The notes under the pieces were generated by a model that had not been told where the DNA came from, made no database searches, and was given only the letters and a program-made list of their open reading frames with translations. From Cryomorphaceae bacterium 1068 (GTDB taxonomy: Bacteria; Bacteroidota; Bacteroidia; Flavobacteriales_D; Cryomorphaceae): a stretch of 64,000 nucleotides of DNA. The translations under genes and the position numbers were made by a program. The stretch lies in contig JAPVXR010000008.1 in NCBI GenBank assembly GCA_027214385.1, positions 62,001 to 126,000 of the forward strand, written 5' to 3'. Numbering within the stretch: position 1 is the first letter of the stretch; the number at the start of each line of letters is the position of its first letter. Positions 51,294 through 64,000 of the stretch are shown piece after piece.

Positions 51294-54200
51294 TTATCGG
51301 ATTAAAGTGATAAATCCCGTAAGCTCGTACTTATCCTCCGTCGTAGCAGAGGTGATTTCAAGTACGTAGGTGTAAACGTCCGTATCAGAGAAGTACTCTG
51401 AATCGGTATTGCCTCCGTTCCAAGCTGTATTTATATTCGATGTTTGGAATACGAGCCGTCCCCATCTATCGTAGATTTTGCACGAATAGGATGAGAGGTC
51501 AACAGTCGTTCCAACGGGTCTCCACAGGTCATTAATTCCATCGCCATTCGGGGTGAAAGAATTCGGAATGAACCACAAGAGGTCATCATTGATTACCAAT
51601 ACTTTACTCAAAGTATCGATACAGCCGTTTACATTTTCGCTGATTAGTGTAATCAAATATTCACCTGCAGTATCTGTTGGGAATCTGTATTGAGACAATC
51701 TCGAATCGCTTTCGTCAAACGCAGGATCTCCATAAAGGAATAAAGTCTTTGCGATGGGGCCTGGACTCGATACATCTTGGAAAGAAATCAATGGATTCTT
51801 AACCGTAGTCGGATTCGGGTTGATATTGAAATTGGCAATGAACGGTTCGGGATTATCCAAAACCAAACTGTCATACAACTCGCAACCAAATTCATTTCTT
51901 ATCCCTATGGTTGCTATGGTATCAGGACAAACAAATCCAATGCTATCCATCTCCCATTCTGCACCTCCGTTATAGGTGTATTCTACAGCGTCAGAAGAAG
52001 AAATGATCACTCGAGCATTGCAGGAATCTCTACAAAGCGCTCCTCTTCCAAGAATAGACATATCGATAGGTGCTGGTTGTCCTATTTCGAAGAAAGTAGA
52101 ATCTACACAACCTACATTATCGGTCACCTTAGCTACATATGTACCTAAGCAAAGGCTATCTCTCAATTGATTTACTCCGCCTGGCACTCCTCCTGTCCAC
52201 TCTATACTGTATACTCCTGTACTTGTTGTTCCTCCAGTTGGAATGGCAATAGCCGTTCCCGAGCATTCGTCAAAACAAATGGCATCTTCAGGTAGTACGG
52301 CGATTTCAAGCGAATCTGCCAAAATAACTTGAACCACATCTGAATCTTCACAGAAGGTTCCGTTAAAATCAGTAAAAGTGAGTTCGTATGTTCCTCCGGG
52401 TGAAGGCGCAGTGATGGTAGCTTGCGGATCATTGATGTCACTGAACGTAATCTCTGGTGGACCGCTCCACGTGCCTATTCCTACGGGGATATCTCCCTGA
52501 AGCTGATAAGTGAGGGCACAGGCGACTGCATCGGGACCTGCATTGGCATTTGTTTGACAGCAAAAGTCATTAGTGGACGGCAAAACCGTTATAACGAGGT
52601 TTGATGAGTTTGAGCAAAGCCCGTTTGATACAGTATATGTCAAATCAAAATTACCTCCATCGGGATAGTCAGTTGGGCTGAATTCCAATGATGGAAATTC
52701 TAGTCCGGTGGCATTGTCAATCCATGTTCCTCCAAGTGCTGGATTACCTCCAAGGAATGAAGTCAAAAGATTGGTAGGTAAGTTATAACATAGCGTCGTA
52801 TCCGTGTCATTTCCAGGGTTCACATCCTGATCGGGTGCAACCAATACTTGATCTGTTATCAAGCAACCAGGTAGACCTAAAGGATAGGCAGATACGGTAT
52901 AGGTTGTTGGTTGCGATACAAATACCGTTGGATTCTGCACATTGGGGTCAGAAAGACCGTCAGCAGGGCTCCATGTCCACACAAGTCCTGAACCGCCATC
53001 GCACGATATGGAGATATCAATGGCTTCTTCAAATCCACCTGCACAGGAGCCTCCAAAGCCTCCACTGTTTAGCTGGAAAGTCAAACATCCCGTTGGGTTT
53101 GTAGCTACAAATGATTGCCCGGAGACATCGCCGTTGAAGAAATTTCCTAGAACCGGAGCTCCCGTGTTATCTCCGTCATATACAGTAATGGTGTTCCCGA
53201 AAAATCCCAAGGTTCCTCCGGTAAAAGTCATTTCAATTTGGGTGCCATCTCCTGGTGTGTCGGGACAATAGGTTTCCGTGATAAAGTCTCCTGAATCATA
53301 GCAGTAACTGTAACTTCCGGCGGCGCCTGAGCATTCTCCTGTAGCTCCTAAAACTGATGCTTGTAAAGTGGCCGGATCGGCACATAAAAAAAGATCGGGT
53401 CCTGCAGTAATATCAGGTCCAACCACCGCCTCAATTACTACGGTTGTATCAAATGTACAGCCGAAATTATTCGTTGAGGAGAAGGTGTATTCGTAGGTGC
53501 CTACTTCATCAAAAAAGACATCGATAGTGTTGGCATCATCTGAGACATTGACAATGTTTGGGCCTGCCCAAAAAGTGGAGTCAGAGCCATACCCGATAAC
53601 AGGTGTGAAGGTTGTGATATCGGGAAAGAGGGCAGGATTAAAATTAATTCCCCATTCAAAAATGTAACCGTTGTCTATAGCAAGATTATCTAAGACACTA
53701 AAAGTCCAGTCTCCATTCAATGGACAACCTACAAAGTTGCATAGATCTTCTTCTGATTGATAATTACCAGGGGGTACGGAGCCGGCAACAGGAGTTTGGT
53801 CGTCAAGATTTCCGTTACTCAGATTTGGCTCCCATCCGTATTGATATCCTACTCCGGGATCATTAGAGCCGTCATCAATAGCTTCTCCTAGAAATGTTCC
53901 TCCTCCTCCATTTGGGTAAGGAAGCATAACCACGTTCGTTCCGTTCGGGCACGTCAGAGAGATTTGAAGATCTCCTAAGTAGGAGTGCTCCATATTGACA
54001 AAGACGTCAAGAAAGTCATCACAATCATCGAGCGTAGCGCCAGGCTCGAAAAAGTCAAAGGTTAAGGTGGATTCATAAGAGAAACCTGCACCATCTGCTA
54101 AGAAAGTCTCACCAGCAACGACCTGAGGAGGTAGAGCAGTCCAAGTCACACTTTCCACAGGGTTACCGTCTAAAGTTGCCGTACTGCCGATGCACACCGG

Positions 54201-55010
54201 TGATTCAAAATCAGGGTTAAAAACCGGAATAGTACTTACCAGTATTTGAAGCGGGTCAACGTTTAAGCTCCTACAACCATTGTCATCAACTACGGAGAGG
54301 CTTACAAGGTATTCACCTGGTTCAGTGAAGGAATGAGTTATATCATCGGCAGTAAAAACAGTATCTACTGTACCGTCATCAAAATTCCAGACCCATAAAT
54401 CAAGATTAAATCCTGGTTCGGCAAAAGATCCAATATCAGAAAAAGTTACGGGTGCATCCAGGCAAATCCCGATAGACTGGTCGGGTCCAATCGGTTCAGG
54501 GTCGGTGATTTGAGAGGCACTGGTAGGAGTAGCACATGGAGTCGTACAGGCAATTGTACCTTGCCAACCAGGACCTCCACTTCCGTTGGGGTTCGAGTTA
54601 AATACAAAGGTCAGACATCCGGAAACGTTATTCACTGTTCCTGTAACGGGGAGACCTTGCAAATCATTTCCCGTGTAACTCCCCAATGAAGCAGCTGAAG
54701 CATCATCACCATCAAAAATGAATAAATAATCGCTGTTATTCGGATTTGGACTTTGATAGAGTTGAAATGCTACAAAATCAACTGATATAACATCTCCGGG
54801 GTTATCAGGACATATAGTGAAAGTGTAATCATTACCCGCTGTGTATGGGCCTCCTTCTCCTGAAATGGGATCATTTCCATCGTCATAAAAACTACCCGAA
54901 CAAGTCGTTATCTCACCATTCTCGATGAGAAATACTTGACCACTTGCAGTATGAACTACAACAGTCAGCAATAAAAAAAGTGAGAGTCTAATTAGTTTAC
55001 TTAAGATCAT
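51294..55010 (-). CDS. T9SS type-B secreted multidomain adhesin (CUB-like, PKD, P-domain, SprB repeats, CHU_C)
   Basis: A 1238-residue exported protein starting MILSKLIRLSLFLLLTVVVH at 55010 (a 15-codon upstream extension overlaps the previous stop). A CUB-like fold covers roughly residues 28-155 and again about 575-690. A PKD domain (VWNFDDGTVDTVF) precedes a proprotein-convertase P-type domain (MEHSYLGDLQISLTC to GDWTFSVLDNLAIDNGYIFEW). About 906-1053 hold SprB-like repeats (ICFDECSGTAIAIPTGG, CLGTYVAKVTDNVGC). A second PKD-like region and the C-terminal gliding-motility domain (FIPNSFTPNGDGINDLW to the IR end) follow. It should be exported and attached at the cell surface. It lies one base after the small exported gene. 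Confidence 0.93.
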   Translation of the reverse strand: MILSKLIRLSLFLLLTVVVHTASGQVFLIENGEITTCSGSFYDDGNDPISGEGGPYTAGNDYTFTICPDNPGDVISVDFVAFQLYQSPNPNNSDYLFIFDGDDASAASLGSYTGNDLQGLPVTGTVNNVSGCLTFVFNSNPNGSGGPGWQGTIACTTPCATPTSASQITDPEPIGPDQSIGICLDAPVTFSDIGSFAEPGFNLDLWVWNFDDGTVDTVFTADDITHSFTEPGEYLVSLSVVDDNGCRSLNVDPLQILVSTIPVFNPDFESPVCIGSTATLDGNPVESVTWTALPPQVVAGETFLADGAGFSYESTLTFDFFEPGATLDDCDDFLDVFVNMEHSYLGDLQISLTCPNGTNVVMLPYPNGGGGTFLGEAIDDGSNDPGVGYQYGWEPNLSNGNLDDQTPVAGSVPPGNYQSEEDLCNFVGCPLNGDWTFSVLDNLAIDNGYIFEWGINFNPALFPDITTFTPVIGYGSDSTFWAGPNIVNVSDDANTIDVFFDEVGTYEYTFSSTNNFGCTFDTTVVIEAVVGPDITAGPDLFLCADPATLQASVLGATGECSGAAGSYSYCYDSGDFITETYCPDTPGDGTQIEMTFTGGTLGFFGNTITVYDGDNTGAPVLGNFFNGDVSGQSFVATNPTGCLTFQLNSGGFGGSCAGGFEEAIDISISCDGGSGLVWTWSPADGLSDPNVQNPTVFVSQPTTYTVSAYPLGLPGCLITDQVLVAPDQDVNPGNDTDTTLCYNLPTNLLTSFLGGNPALGGTWIDNATGLEFPSLEFSPTDYPDGGNFDLTYTVSNGLCSNSSNLVITVLPSTNDFCCQTNANAGPDAVACALTYQLQGDIPVGIGTWSGPPEITFSDINDPQATITAPSPGGTYELTFTDFNGTFCEDSDVVQVILADSLEIAVLPEDAICFDECSGTAIAIPTGGTTSTGVYSIEWTGGVPGGVNQLRDSLCLGTYVAKVTDNVGCVDSTFFEIGQPAPIDMSILGRGALCRDSCNARVIISSSDAVEYTYNGGAEWEMDSIGFVCPDTIATIGIRNEFGCELYDSLVLDNPEPFIANFNINPNPTTVKNPLISFQDVSSPGPIAKTLFLYGDPAFDESDSRLSQYRFPTDTAGEYLITLISENVNGCIDTLSKVLVINDDLLWFIPNSFTPNGDGINDLWRPVGTTVDLSSYSCKIYDRWGRLVFQTSNINTAWNGGNTDSEYFSDTDVYTYVLEITSATTEDKYELTGFITLIR

Positions 55011-55011
55011 T

Positions 55012-55428
55012 TCAGTCGGTGATTTCTTGAAATTGTTTTCTGATGGATTCAGCATCTATCAGCACGAGCATGTAGTTTTCGTCTACTCTGTAATATTGTA
55101 CTTCGTTTTCACTAAGGCGAAAGTTATAGCCAAGTATATTCAGAACCTTGTTTTCTATCATACTTGAAGTAATATCCGGCAAGTTCTCATGAAGCTTTTC
55201 GATGTCACTGATATCTTTTAGAGCTTCTAGATTTTTAGAGGAAGGAATTTCAGCAAGATAGTATCCGTTTTCATTGTAAAACTCAATGAATTCAATTCTC
55301 TCGGGATACTGCTCTCTGATTTGGTTCGCATTTTCTGAACCGTAAATATCATCCAAGGTAGTTGAGCTTTGAGCCATCAATCCCAAGAAAGAAAATGGAA
55401 CCAGAACTATCAGTAAGAAGTATTTCAT
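55012..55428 (-). CDS. Small exported protein between two giant adhesins
   Basis: A 138-residue protein with a signal peptide (MKYFLLIVLVPFSFLGLMAQ) and a mature domain of about 118 residues rich in Glu, Asn, Ile and Tyr (STTLDDIYGSENANQIREQY, YYLAEIPSSKNLEALKDI, EVQYYRVDENYMLVLID). I do not recognise a domain family. It has no T9SS sorting tail and no lipobox. It starts 28 bases after the stop of the ~2600-residue protein and ends one base before the ATG of the 1238-residue one, so all three are one transcription unit. A periplasmic helper for the adhesins is a possible role, but that is inference from position. Confidence 0.75.
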   Translation of the reverse strand: MKYFLLIVLVPFSFLGLMAQSSTTLDDIYGSENANQIREQYPERIEFIEFYNENGYYLAEIPSSKNLEALKDISDIEKLHENLPDITSSMIENKVLNILGYNFRLSENEVQYYRVDENYMLVLIDAESIRKQFQEITD

Positions 55429-55455
55429 TTTGCTATTTAATTTCTGCGGGTTGAT

Positions 55456-58400
55456 TTATCGAATAACCGTTACAGTCCCTTTAAAGTCAACTTTTTCTAG
55501 AGACAATGGATTCTTCGTTTCAATTTGCCAAACGTAAACTCCCGTTTTGACATAATAGTCATCACCATTCATACTACCATTCCACGCCTTACTCGGGTCG
55601 CTGGATTCGAAAACGACATTGCCATACCTATCAAAGACTGATAGAAGGTAGTCGCTTTCATCAATGTTTGTAAGTACCGGTCTCCATAGATCGTTAAGTC
55701 CATCACCATCGGGAGTGAATGCCGAAGGCACGTAAACGAGCATCTCGGGCTTAACTTCCACAATGTCTGACCACTCATCCAAGCACCCTGTTATAGGATC
55801 AATGGCAGTGAGAATCACTGTGTAATTTGCCAGCACTCCCCCGGGGAATTCGAAAGTCGGATTGAATTCAGTAGACGTATCGAGAGAGTCAAACTGCCAG
55901 AAGTAGAAATTCTCATCACCTCCTGACGATTCATTCAAGAATCTCACCTTAGTGTCTTCAGAATTTACTGGATTGGGATTGTAAGTGAATCTCGCTCGTG
56001 GTCCCGGATCAACAGTGATGGTTAGCGTGTCGTCTGCGACACAATCCCCATTGCTGGCAGTCAGTACATAGGTGTATGTTCTAACCAATGGAATGAGGTC
56101 ATCATCACCCAAGATGAAGGTAGGATTCGGATCCTTAGGATCAGATAATCGATCGGCTGGAGACCAGGTATAATCCAGTTCAGGAACTCCGATTACGCCT
56201 ATGGATACTGATCCTGCATCAGAACAGATGGTATCATTTTGTAAGACGGGTGCATCCGGCAATTCACCTACAGGTATAAATTTAGAGTTGTTTGGCGTAT
56301 TGGTACAAACGGGATTCGAGCTGTCTTCCACGTAGAGCACCTGAGTAAATACAGGTTCTGTGGGTTGAAGCACTTCTAAATAGTCGGTTGTCAGACCTGT
56401 CAAGGTGATGGTATCGTCTTCCAGAAGATAAGTCATCGTAAATGGAGGAGTTCCTTGTAAGTCATAGATCAACTCTAACTCCTGACCAATGCAGATTTCA
56501 TCTTGATTGGAAAGCACTTCGGCAGTTGGCAGCTGATTCACTATTAGGGCCGCATCGCTGTCCAGTCCTTCACCTTCGCAACTTTGGTCATTTACCTGTG
56601 TGATGATGTACTCACCATTCTCTCCTGATAAGAAGGAGTAAATGGCCGATTCAGAGGTAATGGCAGGTTGCGGAATTCCATCGATTGTGTACGTTACCGA
56701 CCAAGGTCCGTCACCCGTTAATTCAATTTCAAACGGCAACTCATCTCCTTCACAGACGGTTCCACCTCCTGTGATCAATGCCGTAGGTGAGGCCAAAATG
56801 GTCACATCAAGAGCGCCTGAAACCGTTCCCACACAATTCGCATCGCTAAGAGAAGTAAGCGTATAGTTTCCATCTTCTTCGGCCGGTATGGTGAGCTGAT
56901 TGCTGAACGTCGTAATGGGTTCTGTACTTTCTACTCCGTCGATGCTATAGAAAATAGTCCAAGGAGCCTGACCGGTCAAATTCACAATAGGTCCGTCTCC
57001 ACTATTTTCACATACCTCGCCATCTCCTGAAAGTACAGCAGTAGGCGTATTGAAGTTAGAAACTTCAACCAATCCTGAGACTGATCCATCACAATTGGCA
57101 TCACTCACTGAAAGTAGCGTGTAATTGCCAGGGGTAGCCGTTGGGAAAACATATTCATTGTCAGTTGTACTAATCGGAGTTTGTGGGGCGGCATTTATAG
57201 CATATTGGAAATCCCATGGCCCTTCACCCGTAAGTGAAACAGTAATGTCAACAGTCTCTCCGGGACATACCGTTCCAAATCCCGAAATCTGTGCACTTGG
57301 AAGAGCATTAAAGACAACAGGGATACCATTCGTTTCGTCGGTGCAGTCATCCGATAGGATCACGTTTCCGAAAACATCCGTATTTCCTGCAACCCCTGTA
57401 ACGTAATAGGTCTGTCCAAATATGATCTCGTCAGGCGTAGGAATCGTTGCTGAGTTATATCTGTCAAATATGAAACCGATCTGCGTTTCGCTTCCATCAT
57501 GGAGAAGGTACTGAAAACCATCATTCCCATCCAATACTTCGTCTGAGTTGAAAGGAACAACTAGGTTTTCATCCTCACAGATTTCGATCAAACCGGGAGC
57601 AATACTACCCGCATCGGTGATGCAAACGCATTGGAAAACACCATCTACATCTACTGAAGGACAAGCTCCTGCATCAGAAACGGTGAAAGAGTAGGTATCA
57701 CCGCTATTGATAGGGAAACTTTCATAAGCTCCTCCTGTGAAGGATTGGCCAAATGGATTGACCTGATAGGTTCCTGCTATACCTCCGCTTACGTCAAAGC
57801 TTACGGTGTAATTTTCATTAATAATGTCGCATGTTTCCGTGACATTATTCACAACCAGCGGAGCATCTACTGTGACGGTAACCGGTAAACCATTAACAAG
57901 TCCTGTGCAGTTTGCATCGTTTACAGATAGAATCGTATAGGTCGTTGTTGCCGAAGGACAAACGGTTACCATGTGTCCGTTTGAAATATCAACTAGTGAT
58001 ATTGGATTTCCCGGATCTGATGAATTTTCATAAACAACGTCCCATGGTCCGTCACCTTGAAGATTGAAGGTTAAAGTCGCACAATCGCCGCTGCAAACCG
58101 AAGTGGTTCCACTTAACGATCCTGCAGCAGGGCAGTCACAATCAGGATCGACTCCTGATACTACCTGATCAGAACAAGGTGAGCCATCAGAGATGGTAAA
58201 GCTATAGTTCGTGTCATTCGGAATCAGAGCAGACTCGTAAGAATCCGTGCCCGGGATAATTCCTCCACCATATGATCCGCCTGCGGTTACGTTGTAATTG
58301 CCATCCCCACCTTCGATATCAAAAGTCACGATGTAGCCTGTTTGAGCCTGATTGCACTGAACCACGATATTATTGATTGCAATCGGATCGTTGATCGTAA

Positions 58401-61400
58401 TGTTATAAAGGGCTTGGTCATCAGGGCATTCTGTGCCCGTAACTACGTAGGTGTAAACGTCGGATGAAGCACTGTTAAGAGTAATCGTATTTCCGGGAAC
58501 CTGAGCTCCACCTGAGGTGAAGAAATCGCCTGATCCCGCCGTGCCACCTACCAAGTTATTTAGGTTGTAAGGAGCATTGGTCGCACAGAATACCTCAGTT
58601 ACAGGAGGCCCTGCATTTGGAGGTGTTTCAACAAACACCGTAATTGCATCTGATGCAGTGGTACTGCAGTTTTGATCTGCGACACCTGTAAGCGTGTAGG
58701 TAGTTGTGGTTACTGGAGTGACTTGAAGGAAATCTCCAGACACGAAAGGTCCTTGATTGGTAAATGTGTTGGTCCCATCACTGTAATCGATTGTAAAGGT
58801 CGGCGCTCCTGAAGGAAAGCTCAATTCGATGTTGGCCGTGCTACCTTCACAAATTGTGATTGAATTATCGACAAACTCCGCACTGGCAGGGCAAGCACAA
58901 TTCGGTGAATTGATCGGTCCGGCTGATACATCCGGACATGGCCCCGTATCACTTATAGTATAGCTGTAGGTATTCCCGGTCGGTATTTCATCGGAAACAA
59001 AAGTATTTCCCGTTATCGGGCCTTCCGGATCTAATCCTGTTATGCTGTAATTACCATCTCCACCCGAAATTTCCAGAGCTACTGTATAATCGGTTTGAGC
59101 AGCATTACACACAGCTGATACAACGCTGACGCTTATTGGGTCAATGAAGTTGAGGGTATAAGTAGCCACATCATTCGGACATTGTGTTCCTGAAACTGTG
59201 TAAGTGTACACACCTGAGCTGGCTGCAGTCTGAGGGATAGTCGTCACAACATTTCCGCCGGCATTTGTAAAAACACCGGGTTGATCTGCTGCTCCATCAA
59301 TAATGGAAGACAAGACAAGAACACCACCTGAACCACAGAATTCCAGTGTAACATCAGGACCTGCATCAGGGGTCGGTTCTACTATAACATCAACTACGTC
59401 ATTTACACTCGTTGAGCAGTTTTGATCTGATACGCCTGTGAGGGTATAAGTTGTTGAAGCAATAGGATTTACTTGTAAAAAGTCTCCTGAAACAAACGGC
59501 CCTTGATTGGTAAACGTATTCGTCCCGTCAGTATAGTCAATGGTAAACGGAGATGCTCCGGTTGGGAAATTGAGTTCGATGTTGGCTGTGCCTCCTTCGC
59601 ATATCGTGATAGAAGGAAAATCGACAAACTGTGCATCAGCCGGACAAGAGCAGTTCGGTCCTGCTGTTACGGGTTGAACAAATGGGGCGCACGGCCCTGA
59701 ATCATCTACGTTGAATGAGTAGGTGTTACCTGCAGCAAAAGGCAACGATTCATAAGTGTTTCCAACAAAAGGACCGCCGGGTAATCCTGTTACAGTATAA
59801 TTTCCGTCACCACCTGTAACTGTAAGTGTAACGATATACTGAGTTTGATCAGGAGTGCACTGAGCATCTACCACAACACTAATTGGCGTTTGTAAATTGA
59901 GCGTGTAAAATGCAATATCGTCAGCACATTGACCTCCATTTACGGTGTAGGTATATGATCCGGCTGCTCCCGCAGAAAGCGTTACGATTCCACCAGGCAC
60001 GATAGCTCCTGAGCCTGTGTTTGTGAATGTTCCCGGAGTATCAGCTCCGGGATCTAAGATAGAATTAAGATCAAAAGCTGTATTGTCAGCACATTGAGTA
60101 GTTGATACAGGAGGTCCTGCATCTGGTGCACATTGAACGGTAAGTTGAAGCGTGGAGCTATTTTCACAGCTTCCCGCAACTACCGTATATCCTAGCTGAA
60201 GAGTTGTTCCACAAGCACCTGATATGTCATAAGGATTGGCTACAACGGTGCCCGTTCCAAGGTCAGTCCAAACGCCACCGCTTAGAGGAGATCCGTTCAA
60301 ATAGCTTGTCAGGTCTATGTTTCCCAGAGTCTGGCACAAAGTAACGTTGGTATTGATTCCTGCGCTTGGAGCAGGCTGAACAGCAACAGTTACAGTCGCA
60401 GTAGAAGGAGGGCATCCGGGATTGTTGATTGTGTATGTCGATGAGCCTGGCGGTGATACACCAGGAGTGAACGCGGTAAACGGGAACCATGTCCCCCCCA
60501 TGTCAGGAGGCCCGTTATCTTGGCCTAATGAATCAAAGAGGAAGAATGTAACGTCATTGTCGCAGGCTACTACACTTCGGTCGGTTCCGGCATTGGCTGT
60601 GGCTATATAAGACACATTTATCGTAGCTGAAGCCGTGCAAAGATTGTTTGGCAAGGACTGAACTGTATAGGTGTAAGCACCTGCAGGATCAGTAGCAGGG
60701 TCAACTATTGGAAGCCCCCCCGTTAATGTCCAACCGGCCGGGCCTGTCCATGTTCCACCAGTAGTGACTCCTGCTCCCAATGAGGAAGTGAGATCAACCG
60801 TGCTACCGGCATTTTCACAGATCACCAGCGGGCCGCTTGTTCCCGCATTTGGAATGGATTCGATGGAAATAAAAATGGTTACGTCATCGGAACCACAGCT
60901 ATTTGTTACAGTGTAGGTGTAATTCCCTGAGCTGGCACTTGCAGGATTTAAGGTGCTTCCTGCTACAGGAAAGCCTAGTGGGCCTGTCCAAAAATCACCA
61001 AGCGCAGATGGTGGTGTTGTAAAAAGTGTATTTAATGAAAAGCCGACATCAGAAGCGCAATACTCTTGAGGGACGGTTGTAAGTACTCCGGCAAATGGTC
61101 CGGGCTGGAGATTAATGGTAACTTCAGATTGATCCGCACAGGTTCCTGATCCCACAGAATATTGGTAAACGGCACCATTGGTGACAGTATTACCGTTTAC
61201 GGTGGGCGGAACAACCGGTACTCCGCCTAGTGTCCAAACGCCACCTCCTTGGGGCGTACCACCAAGACCATCACTCAATGGCACATTGAGGTCAGAAGGA
61301 CAAATATCTAAGATGCCATCAAGACCGGCGTCTGCCGTATTGGTCACATTTATGGTAAGCGTATTTGAATCTGAACCGCAAGGGCTATTAATTTGATAGG

Positions 61401-63267
61401 TCCAAACTCCTGGTTGACTATTACCTGGCACAAAAAACTCTCCTCCAAAAAGATTATTTGAAGGATCGTACCATTGACCACCCGGTTGAGGCGTACCCAG
61501 CAAAGTTTCAGTCATATTAAAAGCAGGCTGTGTCTCACAAACGTTGATTACAGTTGGATCACCTGCATCAGTATTGTTGGATAATACGGTCAATTGCATA
61601 ACCTGCGAATTGAAACAAGCCGTTCCTCCAAAACCACCGCTGTAAATAAGGGTGTATGTAGAGTCGGGAATAACGGCAGCAGGGTCGAAGAGGTTTGCAA
61701 CCGTGTTTCCATTTACGTCTTCCCAATCTCCTCCAATAGTAGGTGTTCCTAATAGAAGGGTTTCTAAAGTCACGGGAGCATCGCCTTCACAAACGGTTTC
61801 ATTCGTAAATAGTCCCGCGTCAAAAACTTCACCTACGTCAATGTAGATGGAGTCTTGTGCAAAACCACAAGCAGGATCGTTAGAGTAATAAACGGCATAT
61901 CCATCTTCCATTGGTAGGCCACCGTTGTAATCTGCCGGGTTTAAAGCCCAGGTCGTAGCGATTCCTGTTCCTGAAAACAATAACAAGTCATTAGCATCAT
62001 TGTAGTAAATCCAACTCCCACTTAATGATGCCGGGATGCCAAGTAAAGAATCGTATGGGGCAAATGGCGCATCCAAAAGACAAACGGTGATGTCATTAGA
62101 AGGAAATCCTACTCCACCGCCAGGTGAAATATTCAGCTGCATAGAAACTGTGGTCGGACAGCCACCTGCATCTATATAATTGTAGTTATAGAGGCCTGTT
62201 GTATTGATGCTCGCATCGACCACACCCCCAGGTATTGTAATTCCGTTGTAAGTCCATGATACGAAAGTGCTTCCGGCAGGAGGCAGTGGGAAGCCGGGAT
62301 TTAACCATAAACTATTCAATGGTGTAGGTGCTGAGGCACATAAACTGTTGGTTGCTTGTACACCCAAGTCGATGAATTGCATTGTGATAGTAGAAGATTT
62401 GAGGCAACCGCCTGTTCCAACAACAGTATAGGTGTAGTCGCCGGAAGGATCACTTAATAATGTGTCTGTAGACGGCGTAAAAATTGCGTTGAGGGTTCCT
62501 GGAGGAGGGGGTGTCCATCCGGCAGGACCTGTCCATGTGCCTCCTGCATCAATAGGAAGCCCTAAAAGAGTTGAAAGGTCGAATGGAGTGGTCCCACAAA
62601 TGTTGATAGGGCCCGCAGGCTCTTCTCCTGACTCAGCATCACAACAATCAACTTCAATGGTTTCCGCGGGGCCATCGACAAAATCAGATGAAGGACATCC
62701 CGTTCCCGTGCCCCAGCTTCCCACCTCACTATCGGAGTATGCTTGAATTGCAGGTGTGATGTCCTCTCCGTCAAAAGGGTTACCGGCGCCACCGCAAGCA
62801 GCATCTATGGTTATATCGAAGCAAAATGACCATCCACCACAAGGAAAACTTCCATCTCCCCAATTGTTGCAAGGATTGCCATCTTGAGGTCCGCTAACAT
62901 TTGTATCATAGAAAAAACCAGGATTATTGATAACCAAACCACCACAAGTCAAGCTTTCTAAGTAGAGCCATTCTCCTGCACCGCATCCAGTCGGAGGTAC
63001 AATATTTGTGATGGTTGATACATCCCAGGCAGGTGGGAAAACAATAGCCATACCTGAAAGCCAGTTAGCTCCTCCGGCAGAATAGCTGGTCACTTCTCCA
63101 CAAACCGTTACAACCGTTCCCGCGTCATAGGCACCTCCGGGAGGTACGGGAGGATCAAAGGTCCAATCCGTGTCTATGTCGCATTGCCCGAAAACGGTGG
63201 TCGCAGAAAAAAGAGATAGGACAAAAAATAAGGGTAAAAATCGCAGCTTATTGAGCATCTTCAGCAT
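55456..63267 (-). CDS. Giant T9SS type-B surface protein with tandem Ig-like/SprB-like repeats and CHU_C domain
   Basis: About 2603 residues when started at ATG 63267 (MLKMLNKLRFLPLFFVLSLF). An ATG nine bases later is equally possible. The longer frame to 63327 is rejected because it overlaps an exact -7 box. After the signal come an initial domain, ~10 repeats of about 80-90 residues (G-x-W-T-G-P and Y-x-Y-T-V motifs), three long repeats of about 249 residues with a partial fourth, and three to four Ig-like repeats of about 87 residues. A PKD-like domain (FYFWQFDSLDTSTEFNPTFEF) precedes the C-terminal type-B sorting domain (YVPSAFTPDGDGLNDLWRPV). It should be secreted by T9SS and displayed on the surface, as for SprB-like adhesins in gliding or attachment. 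Confidence 0.92.
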   Translation of the reverse strand: MLKMLNKLRFLPLFFVLSLFSATTVFGQCDIDTDWTFDPPVPPGGAYDAGTVVTVCGEVTSYSAGGANWLSGMAIVFPPAWDVSTITNIVPPTGCGAGEWLYLESLTCGGLVINNPGFFYDTNVSGPQDGNPCNNWGDGSFPCGGWSFCFDITIDAACGGAGNPFDGEDITPAIQAYSDSEVGSWGTGTGCPSSDFVDGPAETIEVDCCDAESGEEPAGPINICGTTPFDLSTLLGLPIDAGGTWTGPAGWTPPPPGTLNAIFTPSTDTLLSDPSGDYTYTVVGTGGCLKSSTITMQFIDLGVQATNSLCASAPTPLNSLWLNPGFPLPPAGSTFVSWTYNGITIPGGVVDASINTTGLYNYNYIDAGGCPTTVSMQLNISPGGGVGFPSNDITVCLLDAPFAPYDSLLGIPASLSGSWIYYNDANDLLLFSGTGIATTWALNPADYNGGLPMEDGYAVYYSNDPACGFAQDSIYIDVGEVFDAGLFTNETVCEGDAPVTLETLLLGTPTIGGDWEDVNGNTVANLFDPAAVIPDSTYTLIYSGGFGGTACFNSQVMQLTVLSNNTDAGDPTVINVCETQPAFNMTETLLGTPQPGGQWYDPSNNLFGGEFFVPGNSQPGVWTYQINSPCGSDSNTLTINVTNTADAGLDGILDICPSDLNVPLSDGLGGTPQGGGVWTLGGVPVVPPTVNGNTVTNGAVYQYSVGSGTCADQSEVTINLQPGPFAGVLTTVPQEYCASDVGFSLNTLFTTPPSALGDFWTGPLGFPVAGSTLNPASASSGNYTYTVTNSCGSDDVTIFISIESIPNAGTSGPLVICENAGSTVDLTSSLGAGVTTGGTWTGPAGWTLTGGLPIVDPATDPAGAYTYTVQSLPNNLCTASATINVSYIATANAGTDRSVVACDNDVTFFLFDSLGQDNGPPDMGGTWFPFTAFTPGVSPPGSSTYTINNPGCPPSTATVTVAVQPAPSAGINTNVTLCQTLGNIDLTSYLNGSPLSGGVWTDLGTGTVVANPYDISGACGTTLQLGYTVVAGSCENSSTLQLTVQCAPDAGPPVSTTQCADNTAFDLNSILDPGADTPGTFTNTGSGAIVPGGIVTLSAGAAGSYTYTVNGGQCADDIAFYTLNLQTPISVVVDAQCTPDQTQYIVTLTVTGGDGNYTVTGLPGGPFVGNTYESLPFAAGNTYSFNVDDSGPCAPFVQPVTAGPNCSCPADAQFVDFPSITICEGGTANIELNFPTGASPFTIDYTDGTNTFTNQGPFVSGDFLQVNPIASTTYTLTGVSDQNCSTSVNDVVDVIVEPTPDAGPDVTLEFCGSGGVLVLSSIIDGAADQPGVFTNAGGNVVTTIPQTAASSGVYTYTVSGTQCPNDVATYTLNFIDPISVSVVSAVCNAAQTDYTVALEISGGDGNYSITGLDPEGPITGNTFVSDEIPTGNTYSYTISDTGPCPDVSAGPINSPNCACPASAEFVDNSITICEGSTANIELSFPSGAPTFTIDYSDGTNTFTNQGPFVSGDFLQVTPVTTTTYTLTGVADQNCSTTASDAITVFVETPPNAGPPVTEVFCATNAPYNLNNLVGGTAGSGDFFTSGGAQVPGNTITLNSASSDVYTYVVTGTECPDDQALYNITINDPIAINNIVVQCNQAQTGYIVTFDIEGGDGNYNVTAGGSYGGGIIPGTDSYESALIPNDTNYSFTISDGSPCSDQVVSGVDPDCDCPAAGSLSGTTSVCSGDCATLTFNLQGDGPWDVVYENSSDPGNPISLVDISNGHMVTVCPSATTTYTILSVNDANCTGLVNGLPVTVTVDAPLVVNNVTETCDIINENYTVSFDVSGGIAGTYQVNPFGQSFTGGAYESFPINSGDTYSFTVSDAGACPSVDVDGVFQCVCITDAGSIAPGLIEICEDENLVVPFNSDEVLDGNDGFQYLLHDGSETQIGFIFDRYNSATIPTPDEIIFGQTYYVTGVAGNTDVFGNVILSDDCTDETNGIPVVFNALPSAQISGFGTVCPGETVDITVSLTGEGPWDFQYAINAAPQTPISTTDNEYVFPTATPGNYTLLSVSDANCDGSVSGLVEVSNFNTPTAVLSGDGEVCENSGDGPIVNLTGQAPWTIFYSIDGVESTEPITTFSNQLTIPAEEDGNYTLTSLSDANCVGTVSGALDVTILASPTALITGGGTVCEGDELPFEIELTGDGPWSVTYTIDGIPQPAITSESAIYSFLSGENGEYIITQVNDQSCEGEGLDSDAALIVNQLPTAEVLSNQDEICIGQELELIYDLQGTPPFTMTYLLEDDTITLTGLTTDYLEVLQPTEPVFTQVLYVEDSSNPVCTNTPNNSKFIPVGELPDAPVLQNDTICSDAGSVSIGVIGVPELDYTWSPADRLSDPKDPNPTFILGDDDLIPLVRTYTYVLTASNGDCVADDTLTITVDPGPRARFTYNPNPVNSEDTKVRFLNESSGGDENFYFWQFDSLDTSTEFNPTFEFPGGVLANYTVILTAIDPITGCLDEWSDIVEVKPEMLVYVPSAFTPDGDGLNDLWRPVLTNIDESDYLLSVFDRYGNVVFESSDPSKAWNGSMNGDDYYVKTGVYVWQIETKNPLSLEKVDFKGTVTVIR
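56480..57330 (-). repeat. Tandem ~260-bp repeats encoding Ig-like modules
   Basis: Three to four successive modules of about 87 residues begin with a small-residue plus Cys signature (SGFGTVCPGE, SGDGEVCENS, TGGGTVCEGD, LSNQDEICIG) and continue with a T-G-x-x-P-W motif. They sit in the C-terminal third of the giant protein. The boundaries are approximate. Confidence 0.7.
57600..60120 (-). repeat. Tandem ~747-bp repeats (about 249 residues) in the giant adhesin
   Basis: Three units carry the same order of modules: GGDGNY-x-T-x, then CPA-x-A-x-F, then ITICEG-TANIEL, then DGTNTFTNQGPFVSGDFLQV, then a Cys-rich end. Matching landmarks are near 59,880, 59,135 and 58,388, giving a period of about 747 bases. 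The DNA of the core stays highly similar between the first two units, which suggests recent duplication or recombination. A partial fourth copy lies below 58,100, lacking one module. Confidence 0.75.
60100..62640 (-). repeat. Degenerate ~80-90-residue modules in the N-terminal half of the giant adhesin
   Basis: About ten modules share a pattern of C-x-x-x-x-x-F-x-L near the start, then GG-x-W-x-x-P/G and a Y-x-Y-x-V strand before the next Cys. Examples are GGTWTGPAGWT and SGNYTYTVTNSCG. The DNA is diverged between copies, so these are protein-level repeats. Confidence 0.6.
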
Positions 63268-63324
63268 TTCTGAAAGGTTTCCTTTATCGATTTTTATCGA
63301 TGTGATTGGTGATTTCGAGAGTCT

Positions 63325-63332
63325 CAAAAATA
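63325..63332 (-). promoter_or_regulatory. -7 box for the adhesin operon
   Basis: The minus strand reads TATTTTTG, an exact TAnnTTTG, 57 bases before ATG 63267. It is the only strong promoter match upstream of the three-gene adhesin unit and rules out the longer frame starting at 63327. Confidence 0.5.
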
Positions 63333-63550: not shown

Positions 63551-63582
63551 AAAAAAAGGCCCGTATTAGCGGGCCTTTTTTT
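63551..63582 (-). terminator. Symmetrical intrinsic terminator
   Basis: A perfect GGCCCG/CGGGCC stem with loop TATTAG is flanked by seven A on one side and seven T on the other, so it works on both strands. It lies 16 bases past the stop of the right-edge gene and ends that transcript before the adhesin promoter. Confidence 0.88.
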
Positions 63583-63598
63583 CTATTTAATAAATAGG

Positions 63599-64000
63599 TT
63601 ATCGAACATTTAATGTGCCGTGGTAGATGTTGAAAACATCTTCGGAATCTACTACCATCATCCATTCGTATTCTCCTTTAGTCACTTCTTCTCCTTTCTT
63701 ATTCTTGCCGTTCCAACCTTTAGAGCCAGAAGACTTAAATACTTCTTCACCTGTACCTTTTTGGAATACTCTAAAATCAGTTACTGCACCATTGTCAACA
63801 ATAGCCCCGGGCGCAAAATCACTTGCGTAAGCAGAAGAGTAAAGCTGAGGAAATTGATTTCCCGCTTTTATGATATGAATCTCTTTATTCAAACTGTCAG
63901 AGCAGTTTCCTGCATTTTCTGCGATCAATTCGATATCGAACTTGGTGTTATCAGCGATACTCAATAGAACATCAACACCTTCTGCCTTTGGCTTTTTGTT
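63599..64000 (-). CDS. C-terminal part of a secreted protein with an atypical T9SS type-B-like end, cut by window edge
   Basis: The frame is open from base 64000 to the stop at 63599, giving 133 residues. No start is visible, and the first internal start-like codon is a TTG at 63964. The visible part begins NKKPKAEGVDVLLSIADN, followed by a strand pair typical of the end of a PKD-like domain (FDIELIAENAGNCSDSLNKE). The last ~70 residues, including DFRVFQKGTGEEVFKSSGSK and GWNGKNKKGEEVTKGEYEW and ending LNVR, follow the fold pattern of the type-B (CHU_C) sorting domain. However, they lack its usual FTPNGDGxND motif. It is probably another surface protein of the same cluster and ends at a strong terminator. 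Confidence 0.7.
   Translation of the reverse strand, partial: NKKPKAEGVDVLLSIADNTKFDIELIAENAGNCSDSLNKEIHIIKAGNQFPQLYSSAYASDFAPGAIVDNGAVTDFRVFQKGTGEEVFKSSGSKGWNGKNKKGEEVTKGEYEWMMVVDSEDVFNIYHGTLNVR

Follow-up and report, generated by a model that had tools for sequence, protein, structure and literature searches.

Substrates of the type IX secretion system (T9SS) can be encoded beside a dedicated partner gene of the PorP/SprF type (PMC10202324, PMC9143113 and PMC12618676; these and all papers below are cited from excerpts). Type B sorting signals use PorP/SprF carriers, while type A signals use PorV (PMC12635249, PMC10202324). For example, the PorE-PorP-PG1035 set of Porphyromonas gingivalis comprises a type B substrate and accessory proteins, among them PorE, a peptidoglycan-binding lipoprotein that reaches the substrate through PorP (PMC9143113). 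In the excerpts cited, such dedicated partners work with the C-terminal sorting domain of the substrate. Here we describe a small exported protein, SMALL, that appears to go with the N-terminal module of a large T9SS-sorted protein, ADHB. Their genes lie in a 64,000-nucleotide stretch, the window, of contig JAPVXR010000008.1 of Cryomorphaceae bacterium 1068 (positions 62,001 to 126,000). The two genes form a near-invariant, tight and sometimes overlapping pair; they are inherited and duplicated together and have fused once.

In having its gene beside that of a sorted protein, SMALL resembles PorP/SprF proteins such as SprF, the partner of SprB in Flavobacterium johnsoniae. PorP/SprF carriers, however, are outer-membrane beta-barrels that act on the C-terminal sorting domain, whereas SMALL has an alpha/beta model and accompanies an N-terminal module with any sorting domain. 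Unlike PorE, SMALL has no lipobox, as judged by eye. SprC and SprD reportedly lie in the F. johnsoniae sprB operon, to go by the title of Rhodes et al. 2011, and would then, like SMALL, be encoded in the operon of a type B adhesin; SMALL has no NCBIfam or Pfam name. Among the matches listed in full-text searches, mostly judged by title, we recognised no published description of the SMALL-ADHB pair. One paper with a promising title (PMC9950754) concerns polysaccharide-export genes in its excerpt.

The preliminary description of the window placed SMALL between two large proteins ending in CHU_C domains, with gaps of 28 bases and one base. The three-gene layout was borne out, as was the one-base gap between SMALL and ADHB, but the gap between SMALL and the upstream gene, adhA, is 27 bases. 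The start of ADHB was taken as the ATG one base past the SMALL stop codon; a start at 55055, which gives the longest open reading frame (ORF), would make it overlap with SMALL. Both flanking proteins do end in CHU_C. Their type B domains exceeded the curated cut-offs (35 bits for TIGR04131 and 27 bits for PF13585), with the ADHB scores given in Table 1 and scores of 45.8 bits (TIGR04131) and 49.5 bits (PF13585) for adhA. By this domain, ADHB and adhA would be T9SS type B substrates, and their export across the outer membrane is predicted. SprA is present in the window genome.

For the analysis of gene order we used 146 distinct SMALL genes, from all loci, with E<=1e-5 and at least 90 model positions. 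In 138 of them, the gene that follows on the same strand matched the ADHB profile, and in one further locus (L294) SMALL was fused to ADHB. All but one of the 138 partners matched the N-terminal region of ADHB, 135 of them over at least 200 model positions; the partners in L167 and L214 were cut short. The one in L305 matched the ADHB profile only through its PKD domain and was not counted as ADHB. The preliminary description had tied SMALL to T9SS-sorted surface proteins as a new exported family, an idea that would have suffered had the homologues lain mostly away from T9SS genes; with ADHB next in 137 of 146 cases, and the fusion, they lie beside them.

Seven genes were otherwise. In L143, ADHB was still the next gene after SMALL, about 450 bp away. 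SMALL was followed in L311 by a CHU_C protein (TIGR04131 55.7 bits) and in L303 by a protein that resembled, by eye, the L305 partner; in L313 it lay at a contig end with no downstream sequence. L299, L300 and L301 held stand-alone SMALL genes, the last two without a signal peptide. One locus with five stops (L024) was set aside. L143 and L175 had no gene called in a survey of 80 loci yet are both among the 146, while SMALL relatives were also seen in L304, L306 and L309, together with two of three in L308, outside that set. In the survey itself, which covered 80 fetched order-level loci, SMALL was called in 78, and in 77 of these it was followed directly, in the same orientation, by a gene for an ADHB homologue. 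Outside the order, the pair was found in 16 of 18 loci (families f17, f22, f32, f40, f45 and f47), the other two being one fusion and one SMALL alone (L271/L299).

Some diverged relatives deserve separate mention. Those in L303 (1521-1949), L304 (3769-4164) and L305 (3744-4223) precede proteins whose N-terminus, as judged by eye, is not CUB and has a conserved GDC...CTNASF motif; the L305 partner has immunoglobulin (Ig) and PKD domains and a CHU_C end. The signal-peptide-less relatives in L300 (9961-10410) and L301 (8038-8532) lie beside genes that look by eye like iron-sulfur assembly genes; both genomes belong to one family.

The pair is tight. From the SMALL stop codon to the chosen ADHB start, the median gap was 2 bp and the gap was at most 25 bp in 128 of 138 pairs; 34 of the 138 overlapped by 4 bases. 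Two SMALL genes were found in the window genome (10 of 126 first-look candidates scored) along with two full-length ADHB genes (all 109 candidates scored), and each SMALL was directly ahead of one ADHB. Were genes shuffled among an assumed 4,000 or so, such 1:1 pairing would be expected about once in ten million. Distances among SMALL proteins were correlated with those among ADHB proteins (r 0.70, against a maximum of 0.14 in 500 permutations). Quartets of paralogues, which are not independent tests, agreed in 74 cases, disagreed in 23 and tied in 20.

A single-sequence search with SMALL (E<=0.01) found homologues in 31 of 100 genomes, its own included, the weakest of them uncertain. The SMALL ORF is thus not a chance frame, because it has homologues in many genomes. 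Of 399 genomes sampled from the order, 237, again including its own, matched in a profile search, as did 154 of the 238 of good quality. In the class, 38 of 395 genomes matched at E<=1e-4, 12 of them being the window genome or members of the same order, and in the phylum sample 4 of 296, all inside the class. These three tallies are lower bounds, as about 10 to 13 first-look candidates were scored per genome. Relatives with names were metagenome-assembled genomes, mostly labelled Flavobacteriales. SprA was present in 389 of the 399 order genomes, so there was no useful contrast with genomes lacking the T9SS; among the 10 without SprA, SMALL was found in six (G043, G083, G092, G337, G355 and G368), probably reflecting assembly gaps.

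SMALL founds an uncharacterised family. A scan of Pfam and NCBIfam gave no match above cut-off for the window protein, and among the 26 members of its profile alignment no Pfam family occurred in more than one, and no NCBIfam family in more than two, at E<=0.1. A Peptidase_C11 assignment was dismissed as a chance match below threshold (14.5 bits against 25.8). The best match to a PDB sequence had E 0.13 and lay over the signal region. An AlphaFold2 model built from 11 sequences was fairly confident (predicted local distance difference test, pLDDT, 83.4 overall, with at least 90 for 76 of the 138 residues; predicted template modelling score, pTM, 0.70) and was mixed alpha/beta, not a beta-barrel. 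Against solved structures, the best Foldseek match had E 0.16 and none of 885 aligned chains reached Z>=2, and there was no match to viral folds (best E 0.15). Sequence comparisons, and fold comparisons with solved structures and viral folds, thus gave no convincing relative. Without its signal peptide the protein is about 120 residues long. Conservation over an effective 104 sequences includes a Y-[YF]-[RK]-[IVL] region close to the C-terminus.

The N-terminus of the window protein is hydrophobic and ends in MAQ; by eye, this is a cleavage site for signal peptidase I, and no lipobox is seen. A stretch resembling a signal peptide, called by a hydrophobicity script and not by a trained predictor, was present in 142 of 146 SMALL proteins, and Q stood at the presumed mature end in 140. 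Two of the misses (L107 and L116) reflect a wrongly chosen start, by eye. A loose lipobox pattern flagged two of the 146, one of them (L143) through a wrongly chosen start. No sorting domain was matched in the 26 members with Pfam and NCBIfam. Exported, non-lipidated proteins of Bacteroidetes have been described as following a Q-rule (PMC10653852), and SMALL looks like one of these and appears to lack its own sorting domain.

The N-terminal domain of ADHB scored 19.9-20 bits with Pfam CUB (PF00431) in the window protein, below the cut-off of 21.4. Its AlphaFold2 model (pLDDT 89.9) matched the PCPE-1 CUB domain with Z 16.0 and a root-mean-square deviation (rmsd) of 2.2 over 120 aligned residues, and we assign it a predicted CUB fold. 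This fold is also that of neuropilin and C1r/C1s; the CUB proteins with solved structures are animal extracellular proteins, and the likeness concerns ADHB, not SMALL. The model of the next domain matched the ColG PKD domain (Z 12.8, rmsd 1.8, 86 aligned). With Pfam at E<=1e-3, 22 of 24 ADHB N-termini had a P-domain match, 18 a PKD match and 6 a CUB match.

At the other end of ADHB, a CHU_C domain was found with our own profile in 75 of 78 complete partners. Two of the others end early (L167 and L198), and the third comes from L308 (677-9998), where three consecutive SMALL-ADHB pairs are found, one of the three SMALL genes being among the 146. The two complete ADHB proteins there carry type A sorting domains at their C-termini (PF18962 30.5 and 34.4 bits against a cut-off of 27); the first also exceeded the TIGR04183 cut-off (27.3 bits against 23), which was not run on the second. 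Both retain CUB, PKD and P-domain, with CUB at 74.8 bits in one. The third runs off the stretch and has the same C-terminal motif by eye. From the domain content, therefore, SMALL appears to go with the N-terminal module of ADHB and not with its sorting signal, which can be type B or type A.

In L294 the two proteins are joined. A single ORF, 1136 codons long or 1102 if counted from the probable ATG, encodes a signal peptide, SMALL, a linker, ADHB and CHU_C, and the hydrophilic linker stands where the second signal peptide would be. We infer that a simple sequencing slip is unlikely, because the signal peptide is replaced. The ADHB part matched our profile at 6e-143, Pfam detected the P-domain (42 bits) and did not detect CUB, and the CHU_C end was above the PF13585 cut-off (40.1 bits) and below that of TIGR04131 (16.6 against 35). 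The downstream genes, metF, ribE and a CHU_C gene, are those that follow the second pair of the window genome, and the upstream gene differs (these names, as well as transketolase, LepA, RimP and AspS below, were given by eye from sequence). Six relatives in the same family keep SMALL and ADHB as two genes.

Our preferred reading, to which we give about an even chance, is that SMALL is a dedicated cognate partner that binds ADHB at its N-terminal module in the periplasm and is probably exported with it. SMALL and ADHB would each cross the inner membrane by Sec and would meet in the periplasm, where SMALL would bind the N-terminal module of its partner; together they would leave through the T9SS on the sorting domain of ADHB. 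SMALL would end as the N-terminal subunit of a surface protein, covalently so in the fused form. Somewhat less probable is that SMALL is a passenger-side T9SS cofactor that recognises the folded CUB-PKD-P module, the T9SS exporting a heterodimer with a sorting domain on one chain only. If this is so, T9SS biogenesis would have, besides the known pairing of sorting domains with carriers, a further layer in which selection is by the N-terminal module and independent of type A or type B signals.

Several observations weigh against a cognate, co-exported partner. SMALL relatives stand alone in L299-L301 and precede other proteins in L303, L305 and L311, as well as in L304 and L309 outside the 146. 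The correlation of distances is partly shared phylogeny, and the quartets are not independent. The fusion is one in 146, in a draft genome, with an end below the TIGR04131 cut-off. Because Pfam found CUB in so few of the N-termini, the CUB label depends chiefly on the model of the window protein. ADHB also occurs without SMALL: among 77 named ADHB loci, SMALL was found in 10 and not in 67, some of which are cut by contig ends. In the 42 genomes from these 67 loci, 32 had no SMALL at E<=1e-3, and 10 had a match, convincing in 6. ADHB proteins about 60% identical to that of the window are among those without it. ADHB thus seems to be made without SMALL in whole lineages, where SMALL would be dispensable or replaced and not universally needed.

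The main alternative is that SMALL is a periplasmic escort or chaperone that binds the N-terminal module of ADHB, solubilises or folds it and stays behind at export. A small, conserved alpha/beta protein with an export-type N-terminus and no sorting-domain match, encoded 1:1 with its client, would suit this role, and the fused SMALL could serve as an intramolecular chaperone. A fused SMALL, however, could be left behind only after being cleaved from ADHB, and a general folding need leaves the many SMALL-less ADHB relatives unexplained. The fusion favours co-export over an escort left behind, but in one genome only, and we regard the escort as rather unlikely.

Co-regulation of two proteins that serve the same surface process, sharing a ligand or a structure, without touching each other would account for a gene pair, which alone is no proof of contact, and for the lineages that keep ADHB without SMALL. 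The in-frame fusion and the frequent gene overlap in a fixed order speak for contact, as does the choice of one particular ADHB in the tandem arrays examined: in six named arrays (L044, L048, L093, L100, L107 and L109), SMALL was ahead of the last ADHB only. We therefore consider mere co-regulation improbable.

The preliminary description had put SMALL in the position of a PorP/SprF partner, on the premise that type B loci usually carry one. Neither part held. In the window genome, 11 of 34 over-cut-off type B matches had a PorP/SprF gene within 150 bp. PorP/SprF directly precedes SMALL itself in three loci (L144, L146 and L167; confirmed in L144, PF11751 109.9 bits), and SMALL goes with type A domains in one genome. 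Replacement of the carrier that type B sorting domains need is accordingly most improbable, even though no PorP/SprF gene adjoins the window pair and, with a nine-sequence profile from the window genome, PorP/SprF was seen in 5 of 146 fetched contexts, many of them short. The family PF11751, a beta-barrel of about 300 residues, matched neither the window protein nor any of the 26 members, and SMALL is too small and has the wrong model for one. It co-occurs with PorP/SprF genes, and it pairs with type A domains, which use PorV (PMC12635249); because SMALL tolerates a partner with either signal type, it is unlikely to substitute for a carrier, and we rejected this role.

Overlapping start and stop codons, as in the 4-base overlaps, are common enough to suggest that the SMALL frame is a mere leader coupling translation to ADHB, its protein having no role, but conservation at the protein level with the Y-[YF]-[RK]-[IVL] region, the export-type N-terminus, the fairly confident model and the survival of SMALL as a domain in the fusion leave this hardly any likelihood.

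The gene upstream of SMALL varies, and therefore the pair is the unit and adhA a mere neighbour. Among the 146 loci it was a divergent transketolase-like gene in 58, a CHU_C or ADHB gene in 25, RimP in 6, LepA in 3, PorP/SprF in 3, AspS in 2 and another gene in 44; in 5 it was not determined. With a CHU_C or ADHB gene upstream in so few cases, the suggestion that SMALL helps both flanking adhesins had to be abandoned. Coordinates of the features are listed in Table 1.

Table 1. Features of the SMALL-ADHB locus and its surroundings in the window
Feature	Position	Strand	Description
SMALL	55012..55428	-	138-aa exported protein; apparent signal peptide I, Q at presumed cleavage site, no lipobox by eye
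ADHB	51294..55010	-	1238 aa; apparent signal peptide, CUB, PKD, P-domain, C-terminal CHU_C
CUB domain of ADHB	54537..54938	-	residues 25-158; predicted from AlphaFold2 model, PCPE-1 CUB fold match
PKD domain of ADHB	54231..54536	-	about residues 159-260; Pfam PKD_4 48.2 bits; ColG PKD match
P-domain core stretch of ADHB	53919..54005	-	residues 336-364; PF01483 36.2 bits, cut-off 21
CHU_C / type B T9SS sorting domain of ADHB	51303..51569	-	residues 1148-1236; PF13585 61.2 bits, TIGR04131 52.7 bits
adhA	55456..63267	-	large Ig-like repeat protein, CHU_C end; neighbour outside the conserved unit
Terminator-like hairpin	63551..63582	.	14 pairs, called on + strand; separates sigma/CHU_C gene pair from adhA
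Putative membrane-anchored anti-sigma protein, C-terminal part	63599..64000	-	PKD and divergent CHU_C-like region; runs past the window

The longest ORF of adhA spans 55456-63327; judged by eye, translation probably begins at the ATG at 63267, ahead of a signal peptide. The protein strongly matched Pfam models for the Ig-like domains of nucleoporin POM152 (180 bits), which is probably a convergent similarity of Ig repeats. Eight terminator-like hairpins were found in the region, no more than in shuffled sequences (mean 10.7).

In L144 (12374-12718), a different exported protein of 114 aa without a Pfam match is encoded in the same cluster, its gene immediately preceding that of another CHU_C protein; L146 has a similar ORF. 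This protein possibly represents a second family of small partners.

Behind the hairpin at 63551-63582, a divergent CHU_C-like ORF, absent from the preliminary description, ends at 63599 and leaves the edge of the window. Just outside the window, a gene for an extracytoplasmic function (ECF) sigma factor (L032, 964-1566) overlaps this membrane-protein gene by 20 bases. The membrane protein has an N-terminal segment of about 50 residues, a hydrophobic stretch, PKD and lastly a CHU_C-like region that is divergent (17.6 bits against a cut-off of 27). The same arrangement of sigma and putative anti-sigma genes was seen in L260 (12599-14465), upstream of surface-protein genes. In the 77 named ADHB loci (L033-L109), 50 of 56 CHU_C ORFs with a complete 5′ end (330-620 codons, own profile, E<1e-2) directly followed an ECF sigma ORF. 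When 10 of the 56 were checked, Pfam CHU_C was above cut-off in four, below it in four and without a match in two, and none reached the TIGR04131 cut-off. These look like sigma/anti-sigma pairs with an outer T9SS sorting domain, the anti-sigma role being suggested by gene order and topology only, and such putative pairs could perhaps sense type B secretion. The nearest precedent found is in P. gingivalis, where PorA, which has a sorting domain, affects SigP (PMC7712824).

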